A stretch of DNA of 51,537 nucleotides from Candidatus Zixiibacteriota bacterium (GCA_030615745.1 JAUWYR010000016.1:1-51537); one strand, 5' to 3'; counted from the stretch's first letter, positions 18,843 through 25,626 are shown. Translations and numbers: made by a program. Notes: a model not told the origin generated them from the sequence alone.

Positions 18843-19673
18843 CTATCTTCCTTTTTTTATCGAATCGACTATCTTCGCGACCTTTTTGCTCTCCTTCACA
18901 TCATGCACTCTCACTATGTTTGCTCCATTCATTACAGCAACTGCTAAGGCGGCTAAACTCCCTTCCAATCTCTTTTCCTCGGGCAAATCCAATATTTTAC
19001 CGATGAAAGATTTTCGAGAAGGTCCAACTAAGATGGTTTTTTTTAAGTTTTTTAAAAAGCTTAAGTTTTTTAGTATCTCTAAATTATCCTCCAGCCTTTT
19101 GCCAAATCCTATTCCCGGATCTATTATAATTTTATTTTCATCTATGCCTGAGTTTTTTGCAACTCTTATAGCTTCTTTTAAATAGCTGGTTATCTCTTCA
19201 AAAAGGTCATCATAATATGGATTTTTCTGCATATCTTTTGGTGTTCCCTTGATATGCATCAGGACAACCGGGACATCAAAATCTTTTATAACTTTTCTCA
19301 TCTCAGAATCAAACCTTAAGGCGGATATATCATTGACCATTGAAGCACCTATATCCAAGGCTTTTTTTGCCACTTCTGATTTATAAGTATCCACAGATAT
19401 TGGGATATCAATCTCCTTTGCCAGACCTTCTATCACCGGAATCACTCTTTTTAATTCCTCCTCAACTGAAACCGGGTCGGACCCGGGTCGGGATGATTCT
19501 CCGCCCACATCGATAATATCCGCACCATCCTCTGCCATCTTCATCCCCTGTTTTAAAGCCTCTTTTGTATCTAAAAATCTTCCACCATCATAAAATGAAT
19601 CCGGGGTAACATTTAGGACACCCATTAGGTAGGTTCTTTTGGAAAAATCAAAGTTTTGATTTTTAATCTTCAA
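18843..19673 (-). CDS. folP: Dihydropteroate synthase
   Basis: 276 aa, TIM-barrel. The family signatures MGVLNVTPDSFYDGG and GADIIDVGGESSRPGS are present, as are SVDTYKSEVAKKAL, VNDISALRFD, DPGIGFGKRLEDNL and the C-terminal RVHDVKES. It condenses p-aminobenzoate with dihydropterin pyrophosphate in folate synthesis. The start is a TTG (19671-19673) overlapping the stop of the accessory HhH gene by 4 bp. folE lies 3.4 kb upstream, across an inserted cassette. Confidence 0.95.
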   Translation of the reverse strand: MKIKNQNFDFSKRTYLMGVLNVTPDSFYDGGRFLDTKEALKQGMKMAEDGADIIDVGGESSRPGSDPVSVEEELKRVIPVIEGLAKEIDIPISVDTYKSEVAKKALDIGASMVNDISALRFDSEMRKVIKDFDVPVVLMHIKGTPKDMQKNPYYDDLFEEITSYLKEAIRVAKNSGIDENKIIIDPGIGFGKRLEDNLEILKNLSFLKNLKKTILVGPSRKSFIGKILDLPEEKRLEGSLAALAVAVMNGANIVRVHDVKESKKVAKIVDSIKKGR

Positions 19674-20878
19674 GAAGAAATTCCTCCTCCACCACCTTCG
19701 TTAGTCTTTCCACTCTTCCACCCTGTTCTTCCTTCAATTGAAATACTTTTAGGAGCATTTAGTATTTTTCTCTCTAACTGACAAACTTCACTAAAAATAC
19801 AGTACCTGTCAGATCTAAAAATCAACCTATTCTGTGGGATTAGACTTTCTAATTTCTTCTCAGCTATTTCTTTCTCTGGTGGACAAAAGCGTTTGTTTGG
19901 TCGACAGGATATCTTGCCAAGTTTAAAGATTAGGTAGTCCATTGATGCTGGGGTGGGGGGTCTATGATTATTAGAAAGTTTGCCCCATTCTTCCCATATC
20001 TTTCTCCATGCTTCACGGTTTAATCTATCTACTATAGAATACTGATAACAATAAACATCCAAGAAACTTGCAAGTAAAGGGATGCGAAATTGGAGAATCC
20101 CAGTTCTCAAAGCTACTCTCATAGTATTTTTGTCACTCATCACATCCAATTTCTCTATGTTTCTTTTGTATTTCCATACTCCTAAATCAGCCATATCTCT
20201 CAAGAACATGTGAGCCTTCTTAGTAGAAAAGCCATATCGTTCCTCGGCTGCCAGTGCTTTAACAATCTCAACTACATCTCCATCGTAAAACTCATTAATT
20301 TTGTATGCTGATGAGTCATATTTTTCTACCAGTAATCTTGCAGAATTCAACATCCACGGCTTTCTTTTATCTCTCTGTGATTGTGCACCAAGAAAATTAA
20401 GAAGTTCGTCTACCAACAAATCATTGTCCTTTACTTTTTCAGGATTGAAACAGTCTGGGTGTCTCTTATAAAATTCAAAAGGATTACTTTTTGCATGGAC
20501 ATCAATATTAAAATCCTGAATTGCTGTAAAAAATCTTACATTGGCGATTTCCTCCTTAGTCAAATCAAGGGTATCTAACTGAACTTTAATGATATTACTT
20601 TTGTAAATGCCTTCTAATACTTTGGCTACAGCCAGACACTCTCCATTAGGATTAATCTGTGGCGACAATACCTTTTCATGGTTTTCTTTCCAGTATTTGT
20701 GGAATTCGGAGATATATTCTAGAGACAGAGTAGCTTTTTTCTGATAGAGGTACTTATTAATTTCATTCAATATATTTGCGGCTAGTTCATATTCATCTTC
20801 GCCTTTAAATTTTTCAGCCTCAAACGTGAACCCGCAATGTTTCGCAAGTTTTTCGAGAAAATTGAGAAAATTAGACAT
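19670..20878 (-). CDS. HhH-GPD DNA-glycosylase-like protein with split Cys4 motif
   Basis: A 402-aa soluble protein. Residues about 212-262 resemble the helix-hairpin-helix/GPD core of endonuclease III-type glycosylases: GFSTKKAHMFLRDMADLGVW, then SDKNTMRVALRTGIL, with D249 where the catalytic Asp of the VDxxVxR motif would be. Near the C-terminus are C325-x6-C332 and C360-x5-C366. Spacings of 6 and 5 match the outer pairs of the FeS loop in MutY/Nth enzymes, but with a 27-residue insert where two residues are usual. The N-terminal 200 residues are unrecognised. The tail is Gly/Ser-rich. It is third in a cassette after a methyltransferase and an ART-like gene (8-bp overlap) and overlaps folP by 4 bp. 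It could be a base-excising restriction effector or a repair enzyme; the family call is by eye. Confidence 0.5.
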   Translation of the reverse strand: MSNFLNFLEKLAKHCGFTFEAEKFKGEDEYELAANILNEINKYLYQKKATLSLEYISEFHKYWKENHEKVLSPQINPNGECLAVAKVLEGIYKSNIIKVQLDTLDLTKEEIANVRFFTAIQDFNIDVHAKSNPFEFYKRHPDCFNPEKVKDNDLLVDELLNFLGAQSQRDKRKPWMLNSARLLVEKYDSSAYKINEFYDGDVVEIVKALAAEERYGFSTKKAHMFLRDMADLGVWKYKRNIEKLDVMSDKNTMRVALRTGILQFRIPLLASFLDVYCYQYSIVDRLNREAWRKIWEEWGKLSNNHRPPTPASMDYLIFKLGKISCRPNKRFCPPEKEIAEKKLESLIPQNRLIFRSDRYCIFSEVCQLERKILNAPKSISIEGRTGWKSGKTNEGGGGGISS

Positions 20879-21431
20879 GTTGTGCCATTTTGCTAAACTT
20901 TTTCCAGCCTCTCATTCTCGAAAGGTAATTGGTCATATCAGATACATCATTATCTGAGAGATATCTTTCTGAAAAGAAACAGTATTCAATACCTTTTCTT
21001 TCAAGTATTTTGATAAGACCCTCAAATTTTGTTTCTCTAAAAAGTTTGCTTTTTATGAGGAGCACTTTATTGATATCCGCTAAATCAAATTTTAATTTCT
21101 TAGGTATCACCCATTCGTTTTCAAAAAGAGGAATTTCTTCATACAATTTTCTTATATTACTTCCATAATTTTTTGGAGAAATTGCTTTATTCCTTTTGTA
21201 AAGCCCGATTGCGTCAAATTTAAAAGTAACATTACCAAAGAATTCAACAATTCCTTTAGTTATCCTATCTGATAATGAAACCAGTCCATTTTTCGCACCA
21301 CATATAGATTCACCTTTATTAGCTACAATCGTTTGTTGTTTTAGAATTAGAGGTGCATTTTCAATGAATGTTGTATGATAAAATACTGGTGTCAACTTTG
21401 CTTTTTCCCATCTTGAAGCTAACTGATCCAT
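20871..21431 (-). CDS. Putative DarT/ADP-ribosyltransferase-like protein
   Basis: 186 aa. The opening TPVFYHTTFIENAPLILKQQ (about 14-33), followed by GLVSLSDRITKG, resembles the YHxTxxxNLxxIL start and NAD-binding segment of DarT/DUF4433-type ADP-ribosyltransferases. The hydrophobic/charged remainder contains KVLLIKSKLFRET and GIEYCFFSERYLSD. ATG at 21431 is preferred to 21449 because GAGG stands 7 bp before it, leaving a 1-bp gap after the methyltransferase stop. It lies between a DNA methyltransferase gene and a glycosylase-like gene. DarT enzymes modify DNA bases or nucleotides, so a DNA-directed role would fit. There is no antitoxin-like macrodomain alongside. Function is tentative. Confidence 0.45.
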   Translation of the reverse strand: MDQLASRWEKAKLTPVFYHTTFIENAPLILKQQTIVANKGESICGAKNGLVSLSDRITKGIVEFFGNVTFKFDAIGLYKRNKAISPKNYGSNIRKLYEEIPLFENEWVIPKKLKFDLADINKVLLIKSKLFRETKFEGLIKILERKGIEYCFFSERYLSDNDVSDMTNYLSRMRGWKKFSKMAQHV

Positions 21432-21432
21432 T

Positions 21433-22992
21433 TTATTTCCTCTTTTCATACACTATCAAATATTGATGATTTATTTTTAAATATTCGCTTGTATTTCGAG
21501 TCTCTAAGTTTTGCTTTTCCTGAGTTACAACCACAATTTCCTTTAGCCAGAAATCATCGTTTGAGATTAAATCTACTATCCTCTTAGCAAGAGGTTCTAT
21601 ATATCCATTTATTCTTACATCTTGAGTCTGGATGACAATGAATCCTTCGTCAGTTATGGTAGATAACGCACTATTTAAAATTTTTCTTATCTCCTCAAAG
21701 TAAAATTCAATGTTTGAATGAGTGGGGTTATTGCTCAAAAAAGGCGACTTAATAAAAAGTAGTCCTTTATTCTTTTGACCTTCTCCCTTAGCGAGTTGTA
21801 TTTTTTTCTTAGACTTAAAATCAAAAGTTAGAGTTGAATGCCCATCAGAATTTGAATATCTATCGATTACATTCTTATTTAAACGCTTTTCAAAATCTTT
21901 ATGCGGAAAAACCCATACTGTTGTGGTTTCAAGTTCATCTAATTTTCTTTTTAGCGGTGGTTTCTCACGAGTAGGGGCAATCAAACCATATTTCAATCCT
22001 CTTTCTCTTATCGTTAAAGGAACTGGAGTCTTAGGTTTTTCAAAAATTGGAAGATACTCGTGTGCCAGAAGGAGAAAATTGTATTTTATACTGTTTGAAT
22101 ACCAAAATCCTGTAGTCTTGCAATTATGTTGCCTTTTGATAACAAGTTCCCTCAATTTAAATCCAACATTTAAATAAACATCTATGAGTCTAAAGCCTAA
22201 TGGAATCACATGTTTTTTTCTTCGCGTATCTCCTATCAAAATTGCACATTGTCTCCCTGGCTTTAGGATTCTAAAACTCTCTTTAGCAACTTTTGACATC
22301 TCCTCTAAGAAATCATCAATATCAAAAAATGATAAATCACCTTCTTTAGAATTAGTATAGTGGATTATATTTGCATAAGGAGGATGGGCACAGATTAAAT
22401 CAACGGAGTTATTTTGCAAAAAAGACAAATCTCTTGCATCACCAACTGATAGTTTGGGTTCATAGATTTTAGGGTTAGCTTTCTGGTTAATAAATTCTAA
22501 CAATTGTTCTTGATCGATCTTAAAGCTCACATTCCTTTTCGCCAATTCGATCGCTTTATCGTTAATATCAAAGGCAATACATCTCCTGCTCAATAATTTG
22601 GCTTCGACTGCCGTAGTGCCTGCACCACAAAAATAATCAAGTACAACCTCCCTTGGTTTTGAATATCTAAGAATTACATTTCTCGGTATATAAGGTGACC
22701 AGTTTCCTCTATATTCTCCACTATGAGTTGCCCAATTGCCCCTTCGTTTGAAACTCCAGACTGTTGTTTTCTCTCCTTTAAAATTCTTTGGATAAAAAGT
22801 CTTTGCTTTCTTGGAACCTTTTAAAACACTGACGTTAACTCCTTCTGCTTTGGTAATAAGTCGCTCAATATATCTATAGGTAACCCCGTATTTCTGTCCA
22901 ATCTCCAAATCAGAAACTCCCCTTGCCTTTTCCCGCAAGATAGCTTTCTCAAGCTCCTTTTCTGTTTTGAATCTTTTTTTTTGATTAGACAC
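21433..22992 (-). CDS. N4/N6-type DNA methyltransferase with HTH and second half-domain
   Basis: 519 aa. Residues 10-50 form a helix-turn-helix (GVSDLEIGQKYGVTYRYIER). The methyltransferase core has GNWSPYIPRNVILRYS (about 96-111), SAM motif I LDYFCGAGTTAVEA (118-131), DINDKAIELA and the catalytic motif IV HPPY (203-206, in place of DPPY/NPPY). From about 355 a second unit appears, with TTVWVFPHKDF, IKSPFLSN and a closing VVVTQEKQ...HQYLIVYEK, resembling a methyltransferase half without motif I. It may be a degenerate duplication or a target-recognition region. Start is GTG with GGGAG upstream. It heads a three-gene cassette wedged between folE and folP and is probably the modification arm of a defence system. 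Confidence 0.8.
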   Translation of the reverse strand: MSNQKKRFKTEKELEKAILREKARGVSDLEIGQKYGVTYRYIERLITKAEGVNVSVLKGSKKAKTFYPKNFKGEKTTVWSFKRRGNWATHSGEYRGNWSPYIPRNVILRYSKPREVVLDYFCGAGTTAVEAKLLSRRCIAFDINDKAIELAKRNVSFKIDQEQLLEFINQKANPKIYEPKLSVGDARDLSFLQNNSVDLICAHPPYANIIHYTNSKEGDLSFFDIDDFLEEMSKVAKESFRILKPGRQCAILIGDTRRKKHVIPLGFRLIDVYLNVGFKLRELVIKRQHNCKTTGFWYSNSIKYNFLLLAHEYLPIFEKPKTPVPLTIRERGLKYGLIAPTREKPPLKRKLDELETTTVWVFPHKDFEKRLNKNVIDRYSNSDGHSTLTFDFKSKKKIQLAKGEGQKNKGLLFIKSPFLSNNPTHSNIEFYFEEIRKILNSALSTITDEGFIVIQTQDVRINGYIEPLAKRIVDLISNDDFWLKEIVVVTQEKQNLETRNTSEYLKINHQYLIVYEKRK

Positions 22993-23032: not shown

Positions 23033-23602
23033 CTATGCAGATAAATATTTATCTTTAATCAAAGCCAAAGCCAAAGCCTTTTTTTTGTCATCTTTTAAAG
23101 TCCCTCTTGAAGCTGTGGTGATGGTCTGTGCTCCTAATTTTTTGACCCCTCTTAAGGTCAGGCAGAGCTGTTCTGCCTCCATTATGACTAAAACTCCTCT
23201 TGGTTTCAACGCCTCCATCAAAACATCAGCTACCTGGGAGGTGAGCCTCTCCTGAAGTTGAGGTCTATGTGCCAGAACCTCAATTACCCGAACTAATCTC
23301 GAAAAACCGGTTATCCTGTTATTGTCAGGTATGTAAACTATATGAACCTTTCCGAAAAAAGGGAGAAGATGATGCTCACACAAGGAATTAAAGAATATAC
23401 CTTTGGCGATTACCATCTCATCATGATTTGGAAAAAAATAGTGCTTGAGCTCTTTTTTTGGGTCTTTTTTAATACCGGAAAAAAACTCCTGATATAATTC
23501 CGCCACCCTTTTCGGAGTTCCCTTCAGACCATCCCTTTTGGTATCCTCCCCAACAGCTTCCAAAATCATCTTTATCGCTTTCTCGATCTTTTTTTTGTTC
23601 AT
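23033..23602 (-). CDS. folE: GTP cyclohydrolase I
   Basis: 189 aa. The catalytic zinc and active-site segment [20 protein letters not shown] is intact, as are [25 protein letters not shown] and the later [22 protein letters not shown] with the zinc-ligating Cys. It makes dihydroneopterin triphosphate, the first step of folate/pterin synthesis. It overlaps ftsH by 4 bp. The next folate gene, folP, lies beyond the inserted accessory cassette. Confidence 0.96.
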
Positions 23603-25626
23603 TTCTCTTGATCGCTGCCGATCTTTTGATCGTTGCCGATCTCTTGATCTTTACCGACTTTTTTCTCATCTTTTAATTCCAAAGGTTTAAGTTCTTCACC
23701 CTTTAAAATTCTATCGATCTGTGAGCCGTCCAGAATCTCCCTCTCTAATAAAGCTTTAGCTAAACGGTGGAGCTTGTCCATATTTTTACTCAAAAGCTCA
23801 GTGGCTTTTTGTTCCGCTTTCCCCACAATACCTCTTACCTCCTCATCTATCTGTTGAGCAGTCCTTTCACTGTAATCTCTGTGTTTAGCGATTTCTCTGC
23901 CCAAAAAAATTTCCTGTTCCTTTTTTCCGAAGGTCAAAGGACCGAGTTTTTCACTCATTCCCCATTCGCAAACCATCTTTCTCGCAAGTGCAGTTGCTTT
24001 TTCGATATCATTTCCTGCTCCAGTAGTCAGGGAGTCAAACACAAGCTTCTCTGCCACCCTTCCTCCTAAAAGATGGACTAACTTGATCTCCAGATATTCT
24101 TTTGAATAGGTGTGTTTCTCATCTATGGGAAGATAATGGGTAAGTCCAATAGCCATTCCACGAGGGATGATGGTCATCTTATGAACTGGGTCCGAACCAG
24201 GAATAAGCTTTGACACCAGCGCATGACCAGACTCATGACAAGCGGTGATTTTTTTCTCCTCATCTGAAATGACTAAACTTTTTCTCTCAGCACCCATCAT
24301 CACCTTATCCTTCGAATCTTCGAAGTCCTTCATGGTTACCTCGTTGTGATTCCTTCTCGCAGCCAAAAGAGCAGCCTCATTTACCATATTAGCTATATCC
24401 GCTCCGGTAAAACCTGGGGTTCCCCGGGCTAAAACCGAGAGGTTCACATCTTTTCCTAATTTGATTTTTCTGGTATGAACTTCAAGAATTCCTTCCCTGC
24501 CCCTGACATCTGGAATATCCACAACTATCTGACGGTCGAATCTCCCTGGTCTTAAAAGAGCAGGGTCTAAAACATCCGGGCGGTTAGTAGCCGCAAGGAG
24601 TATCACACCCTCGGTCGATTCGAATCCATCCATCTCCACCAAAAGCTGATTTAAAGTCTGTTCCCTTTCATCATGTCCTCCCCCTAATCCTGCTCCCCGG
24701 TGTCTTCCAACTGCATCTATCTCATCGATAAATATTATACAGGGAGCACTTCTTTTTCCCTGGTCGAAAAGGTCTCTTACCCTTGAGGCTCCTACACCAA
24801 CGAACATCTCGACAAAATCTGAGCCGCTCATGCTAAAAAATGGCACCTCAGCCTCACCTGCAACCGCTCTTGCTAAAAGAGTTTTTCCGGTGCCAGGAGC
24901 TCCCAAAAGCAAAGCTCCTTTGGGTATTTTCCCACCCAATTTTTGAAATTTGCTCGGGTCTTTTAAAAACTCTATTATCTCCTTAAGCTCCTCCTTGGCC
25001 TCATCTGCACCAGCCACATCGCTGAAGGTAACCTTTGGTCGGTCACCTGACAAAAGCTTCGCCTTGCTTTTACCGAAAGTGAAAATCCCTTTTGACCCTC
25101 CCTGCATCTGCCTGAACAAAAATAACCAAAAAACCAGTATCAAAATCCAAGGCAATGAGGTTAATAATATTCCGGACCAGTTAGTGGTAGGAGCTTCTGC
25201 ATCTATCTCCACACCCTTTTGCTCTAACCTCGTCAAAAGTTCTGGGTCCTCAAAGGGGAGATGAAGCTTGAACTTCTTATACTCTTTGGAGATTCCTCTC
25301 TCTTGATAAGTTACAAAATTTCTGAACTCACCCTCCACATCCTTCTCAACCAATTTCACTTTGAAAATGTTGGAGTCATCCAATTCCTGGATGAATCTGG
25401 AGTAGGAAATTGGGAGAACATTCTTTTTGCTCCGGGAATAATATTGGAAAACAGTTACCGAAATTAAAATCAGAAAAACCCAGAAGAGAAGAGTTCGGGT
25501 AGCCCTTTTCCAGGGAAACTGGTCTTTGCCCTCTGGGGGAGCACCTTTGGGGTATCTACCCCTTCTATCTTCCCTTTTTCTTTGAGGAGGAACTCTTTTT
25601 GAGTTTTTTTCTTTTGGCTTGTTCAT
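23599..25626 (-). CDS. ftsH: ATP-dependent zinc metalloprotease FtsH
   Basis: 675 aa. TM helices (about 45-65 [18 protein letters not shown], and about 150-168 [19 protein letters not shown]) flank a periplasmic domain. The AAA+ module has Walker A GAPGTGKT, Walker [12 protein letters not shown] and the arginine-finger region [21 protein letters not shown]. The M41 protease site is HESGH (commonly HEAGH) with the downstream acidic ligand in [13 protein letters not shown]. It degrades membrane and short-lived regulatory proteins. The last about 20 residues are a 6-aa tandem repeat ([18 protein letters not shown]) encoded by an 18-bp tandem repeat related to the copies at the ends of obg. Confidence 0.97.
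23604..23658 (-). repeat. 18-bp tandem repeat x3 in the ftsH tail
   Basis: Three units at exactly 18-bp spacing (23604, 23622, 23640) with consensus ATCGGCAACGATCAAGAG on the minus strand. They keep the ftsH frame as a GNDQEI-type hexapeptide and end at the ftsH stop and folE start. The consensus equals the 19-mers at both ends of obg. Confidence 0.85.

Follow-up and report, generated by a model that had tools for sequence, protein, structure and literature searches.

In the window, by which we mean the whole 51,537-nt stretch of Candidatus Zixiibacteriota DNA analysed here, folE and folP are separated by three minus-strand genes that we refer to as M, the ART-like gene and R. The flanking genes (tilS-hpt-ftsH-folE on one side and folP-cdaA on the other) were named from their translations, and the features of the locus are:

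18843..19673, minus strand: folP, host flank gene downstream (ORF)
19670..20878, minus strand: R, 402 aa, HhH-GPD-glycosylase-like, predicted restriction arm
19670..19735, minus strand: conserved C-terminal Gly-rich tail of R, TGWKSGKTNEGGGGGISS, overlapping the folP start
20871..21431, minus strand: ART-like gene, 186 aa, ART/DarT-like N-terminus, optional accessory
21433..22992, minus strand: M, 519 aa, GTG start, DNA amino-methyltransferase with an HTH-like N-terminal region, a catalytic domain (FCGAGTT and HPPY motifs) and a degenerate C-terminal copy of the methylase domain
23033..23602, minus strand: folE, host flank gene upstream (ORF)

The 186 aa of the ART-like protein are counted from a conserved second Met and become 192 aa if the start is placed at 21449. 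M and the ART-like gene are separated by a gap of 1 bp, the ART-like gene and R overlap by 8 bp and R and folP by 4 bp, so that the three-gene arrangement and all three spacings are as the initial annotation of this DNA had given them. The G+C content of the cassette is 0.31–0.36 versus 0.40–0.43 for its flanks, and none of the three proteins has a match in one same-genus genome (86% complete). At the 3′ end of ftsH (23604–23663 of the window) there are three repeats with GATC at an 18-bp spacing.

By its profile matches M is clearly a DNA methylase (PF01555 in Pfam, 4.9e-33; MTase_II in PADLOC, 5.4e-98; HTH_23 matches weakly), in agreement with the DNA methyltransferase that had been called here. 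Its C-terminal third aligns to M's own catalytic domain (hhalign probability 96.6, E 5.4e-10) and, judged from this alignment, is a degenerate copy of it. The initial annotation contained neither this internal duplication nor the partner swapping and the link to GATC via DpnII and MutH neighbours that are described below.

Scanning an M alignment against GTDB contigs yielded 80 loci. A full-length R lies just downstream of M, with at most one small gene between them, at 13 loci including the window, and these span about nine phylum-level labels, as taken from the record titles: Zixiibacteriota (the window and L005/L034, one genome), Deltaproteobacteria (L027), TA06 (L031), Caldisericia (L036), Chloroflexota (L035, L045 and L078), Planctomycetota (L042), Omnitrophota (L047), WOR-3 (L051) and Elusimicrobia (L054), with L037 unclassified. 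Fragments of R are found near M at L073, L074 and L091. Identity to the R of the window is 84–100% in 10 of the 13 (window included; other genomes mostly 84–88%) and 37–40% in the other three (alignment A4). The host neighbours differ, being for instance purA-like in L005 and tRNA-synthetase-like in L042 and L045 (named by eye), and because M and R recur as neighbours at unrelated loci in a dozen other genomes we regard the pair as a mobile cassette. R is under purifying selection (dN 0.05–0.10 versus dS of 0.68 and above), and this, together with the recurrence of M-R at unrelated loci in many genomes, indicates that the association is more than chance, although most members of the R family were reached via M, which biases the estimate of their linkage. 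An adjacent methylase and putative restriction gene that are transferred together, here to unrelated sites at 13 loci, is a trait of type II restriction-modification (RM) systems. A divergent R of 446 aa (L119:6654-7994) has no M within about 5 kb and lies near a 246-aa HTH-like gene. Relatives of R or the ART-like protein were found neither in viral contigs, using single-protein pattern scans, a two-row R alignment and a trimmed R, nor on plasmids or phages by tblastn.

M also occurs with other partners. A DpnII-family gene precedes or follows full-length M at 11 loci (L039-L041, L050, L059, L063, L066-L069 and L077), with PF04556 matches beside M of 1.5e-85, 8.4e-96 and 2.6e-15, and queries with Dam, beta-methylase, MutH and DpnII returned no methylase besides M at any of them. 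Being the sole methylase found with these queries beside DpnII is what is expected of a GATC methylase, and GATC is most likely the target of M. Additionally, a short M in one relative adjoins a MutH-type nuclease gene (1.1e-13), and Dam-like and DpnII-like genes (named by eye) accompany short Ms of Fusobacterium and of a phage-like contig. The same queries found no DpnII, MutH or Dam relative at the R loci. The methylase and the glycosylase-like protein that the initial annotation had placed in one restriction-like system recur together outside this lineage, and do so in the slot where sister loci hold a restriction nuclease. At L026, L028-L030, L033, L043, L044, L048, L055, L060, L061 and others the slot beside M is taken by a third kind of partner, which we call SmallP (about 180–200 aa, with a C-terminal region in common and varied N-termini) and for which neither a known family nor a PDB match was found. 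None of the loci combines R with DpnII or SmallP, or DpnII with SmallP. We placed 50 Ms on a tree and labelled the partner of 44. At least 16 changes of partner class are needed on it, against 18–25 (mean 22.7) with shuffled labels, which indicates partial inheritance of the partner and frequent swapping.

Further relatives of M stand in other surroundings. A same-class relative has a short M and a MutH-like gene (L024:5519-7478) at a distance of about 4–5 kb from folP-cdaA, the neighbourhood that also surrounds the cassette of the window; this may be chance. A relative of M (78% identity, split over frames) and more methylase fragments, without R, are found on an IMG/VR contig that also has a DNA polymerase-like gene (L006:5929-8138) and is possibly a phage protecting its own DNA. 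In L072, L073, L074 and L120, M ends early at residue 190–300 and is followed by a 275-aa HTH/REase-like gene, with an 85–98-aa gene also following the broken M in L073, L074 and L120; another cassette seems to have landed inside M, and in L120 R has decayed to a 63-aa ORF. Archaeal relatives of M (L095-L105 except L100 and L101; Bathyarchaeota/Crenarchaeota by title) have a conserved gene of ~167 aa upstream.

If M methylates GATC, its presence may be reflected in how often the site occurs in the host. In six Chloroflexota with intact or near-intact M (three of them with R) the observed/expected ratio (O/E) for GATC, which throughout was computed on partial genomes, is 0.21–0.53, and GATC is the lowest palindrome by this measure in all six. 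Nine other Chloroflexota, with a broken M, with an R that lacks M beside it or with no known M, and with a G+C that differs from that of the M-bearing genomes, have ratios of 0.73–1.12 (p=0.0002). Across 12 genomes with R the median is 0.30 and only CTAG is rarer, and the window's own genome has a ratio of 0.56 versus 0.78 for its congener. Outside the Chloroflexota the control comparisons are mixed: the R-bearing G006 (0.65) is level with its R-lacking congener G002 (0.66), and several R-lacking genomes from the G139 group (Omnitrophota by title) are equally GATC-depleted. The avoidance is also equally strong with SmallP and DpnII loci. As the depletion tracks M and equals that at the SmallP and DpnII loci, it speaks to M and not to R.

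The slot between M and R holds the ART-like gene in the window, L027, L078 and L031, where the copy has a stop and a frameshift. The M-ART-R trio of the initial annotation itself recurs in this way, yet the slot instead contains a 96-aa gene in L005 and L045 and an 84-aa Cys-rich gene in L035, and is empty in L036, L037, L042, L047, L051 and L054. Two more copies lie elsewhere: one follows a SmallP gene in L046 and is cut after about 30 aa, and the other, truncated, sits between two SmallP genes in L256 and thus belongs to a different partner set. Three of the six copies (L031, L046 and L256) are interrupted or truncated. Because most M-R pairs lack it, other small genes can take its place and its copies are often broken, we consider the ART-like gene an optional accessory, and the same findings, with the different partners in L256, speak against the earlier proposal that it is a required arm of the system. 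The resemblance to DarT or an ADP-ribosyltransferase that had also been suggested survives as a short, weak local profile match (hhalign 26.5 compared with a maximum of 20.5 in 40 shuffles, spanning 33 columns only). The protein does not match PF14487 at the curated cut-off, has no Pfam, NCBIfam, PHROGs, PADLOC or PDB match at useful E-values, and its AlphaFold model (pLDDT 35) is too poor for structural support. It may resemble DarT (PF14487) over a short N-terminal stretch but differs in being optional and below the Pfam threshold, and no DarG antitoxin was seen among its neighbours. A toxin-antitoxin-like module with the ART-like protein as effector would be in keeping with this local match and with the intact copies in the window, L027 and L078, which are under purifying selection (dN/dS about 0.13–0.21). 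Such a module is nevertheless very improbable given that most M-R pairs lack the gene, that it is broken or short in L031, L046 and L256, and that R is conserved better than it is.

No family of Pfam, PADLOC, NCBIfam or PHROGs matches R itself at threshold (PADLOC gives a weak cyclase match), and even with the cut-off relaxed to E 10 PF00730 is not among the Pfam matches of any member. Compared as a profile with 23 HhH-GPD enzymes from relatives, R scores 27.9 in hhalign, which none of 150 column shuffles reaches (maximum 23.0), and its scores against the DarT, DpnII, SmallP and M alignments are 12.9–16.9. The R/HhH-GPD alignment sets GFSTKKAHMFL against GVGRKTANVVL and DVMSDKNTMRVALRTG against VDTHVxRxxxRLG. 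R K220 aligns with K120 and R D249 with D138 of EndoIII, the HhH lysine and the catalytic aspartate of that enzyme. K220, K221 and D249 are invariant in the 13 members of alignment A4, and R thus has the HhH-GPD trait of profile similarity with Lys and Asp in register. C325, C360 and C366 are likewise invariant in A4, and a further Cys lies at or next to C332, shifted in three divergent members. The second and third of these Cys are 27 residues apart versus 2 in the Fe-S branch loop CX6CX2CX5C, and on its sequence the set resembles this loop with a longer insert. The AlphaFold model of R has a mean pLDDT of 61 and is confident mainly from residue 100 to 235. In a Foldseek search of the PDB with this model the ten top matches are all Qng1/DUF2419 N-glycosylases, with a best E of 0.11 and probabilities reaching 0.99, and OGG1, MutY and TAG follow at lower ranks among unrelated low-probability helical proteins. 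Together the profile score, the Foldseek matches and the conserved residues bear out the DNA-glycosylase-like protein of the initial annotation as one with HhH-GPD features. A search for Qng1 (PF10343) across the phylum gave none, and the controls likewise gave none. DUF2400 was considered as a family for R (one member, E 0.004) and rejected, as the hhalign score of 21.0 is below the shuffle maximum of 22.2.

Given that the fold assignment of R is moderate and that R occupies the place of DpnII in sister loci, R could also restrict by cutting the backbone, with the HhH-like fold only binding DNA and the nuclease centre elsewhere, for example in the C-terminal tail. T385, W387 and G396–G398 of this tail (TxW...GGG) are invariant in 13/13 members of A4, the tail is conserved as much as the HhH core, and we know of no counterpart to its TGW...GGG in glycosylases. 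However, Pfam, PADLOC and PDB searches place no nuclease family in R (it has no PF04556 match, and its hhalign score of 16.9 against DpnII is inside the range of unrelated families), and the Lys and Asp are invariant at glycosylase/lyase positions. We consider backbone cutting unlikely, though far from negligible.

The Qng1 matches, as R's best structural neighbours are queuosine-5′-phosphate N-glycosylases, would fit a type IV-like R that excises unusual phage bases such as 7-deazaguanines, M being a separate marker that travels along, and Brig1 is a precedent for a phage-defence glycosylase directed at modified bases (PMC11078745). This is improbable in view of the constant place of R beside M, the mutual exclusion of R and DpnII within one M family and the avoidance of GATC where M occurs.

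R could also be a repair helper of the methylase and not a restriction enzyme. HhH-GPD repair enzymes do occur beside RM genes, and the MthTI system is adjoined by a mismatch glycosylase. M is however an amino-methylase (PF01555, HPPY), the product of which is not deamination-prone 5mC, and no separate DpnII or MutH nuclease was found in the R loci, which makes a repair role for R quite improbable.

With slightly better than even confidence, we propose that M-R is a mobile RM-like GATC system in which R is an HhH-GPD-type restriction arm acting by base excision. M would methylate GATC and so mark self DNA, whereas R would bind unmethylated GATC, flip out a base and excise it, methylation of the site blocking this attack. 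The excised base would probably be adenine, by analogy with R.PabI, and the abasic site left behind may be nicked through the conserved lysine of R. The ART-like gene would be a passenger, optional to the system and decayed in several relatives. More tentatively, and at somewhat less than an even chance, R stands for a second class of restriction glycosylase with an evolutionary origin of its own, in which a DNA-repair-type HhH-GPD enzyme serves as an exchangeable arm of a GATC methylase and swaps with DpnII across bacterial phyla.

Restriction by base excision is already known, and the novelty here would lie in the fold, in the presumptive site and in a single methylase family that exchanges R for DpnII. 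The restriction glycosylases of a 2023 review are the R.PabI superfamily, with HhH enzymes unmentioned; the R.PabI family acts on GTAC by base excision and abasic-site cleavage, and the host genomes of R.PabI, R.HpyAXII and R.CcoLI avoid the target site (PMC10273834). The literature we searched held no report of an HhH-GPD restriction arm, an absence that is no proof. R shares with this HALFPIPE group a methylase-plus-partner organisation and, as proposed here, base excision blocked by methylation. It differs in having HhH-GPD features and in its predicted site (GATC versus GTAC), and PDB sequence and fold searches gave no PabI match, the leading structural matches being HhH-GPD-type enzymes. 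If our reading holds, a repair-type fold unrelated to that of R.PabI has become a restriction arm, and base-excision restriction has evolved more than once. R is similar to EndoIII, MutY, OGG1 and Qng1/DUF2419 in its predicted fold, in the positions of the HhH Lys and catalytic Asp and possibly in its Fe-S-like Cys. It is, however, larger (402–459 aa), falls short of the Pfam thresholds, ends in a Gly-rich tail of its own and comes coupled to a methylase. Brig1 is also a glycosylase directed against phage DNA, a role that is only predicted for R, but belongs to another superfamily, that of uracil-DNA glycosylases, and acts on alpha-glucosyl-hmC, with a methyltransferase unmentioned in the paper (PMC11078745). 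Finally, the DpnII/MboI-type systems (PF04556) have the same M family, the same slot and, by prediction, the GATC site in common with M-R, but DpnII is a nuclease family to which R has no similarity. If our reading is correct, DpnII and glycosylase-like arms that swap on a common methylase would allow strand cutting and base removal to be compared directly at one and the same site.
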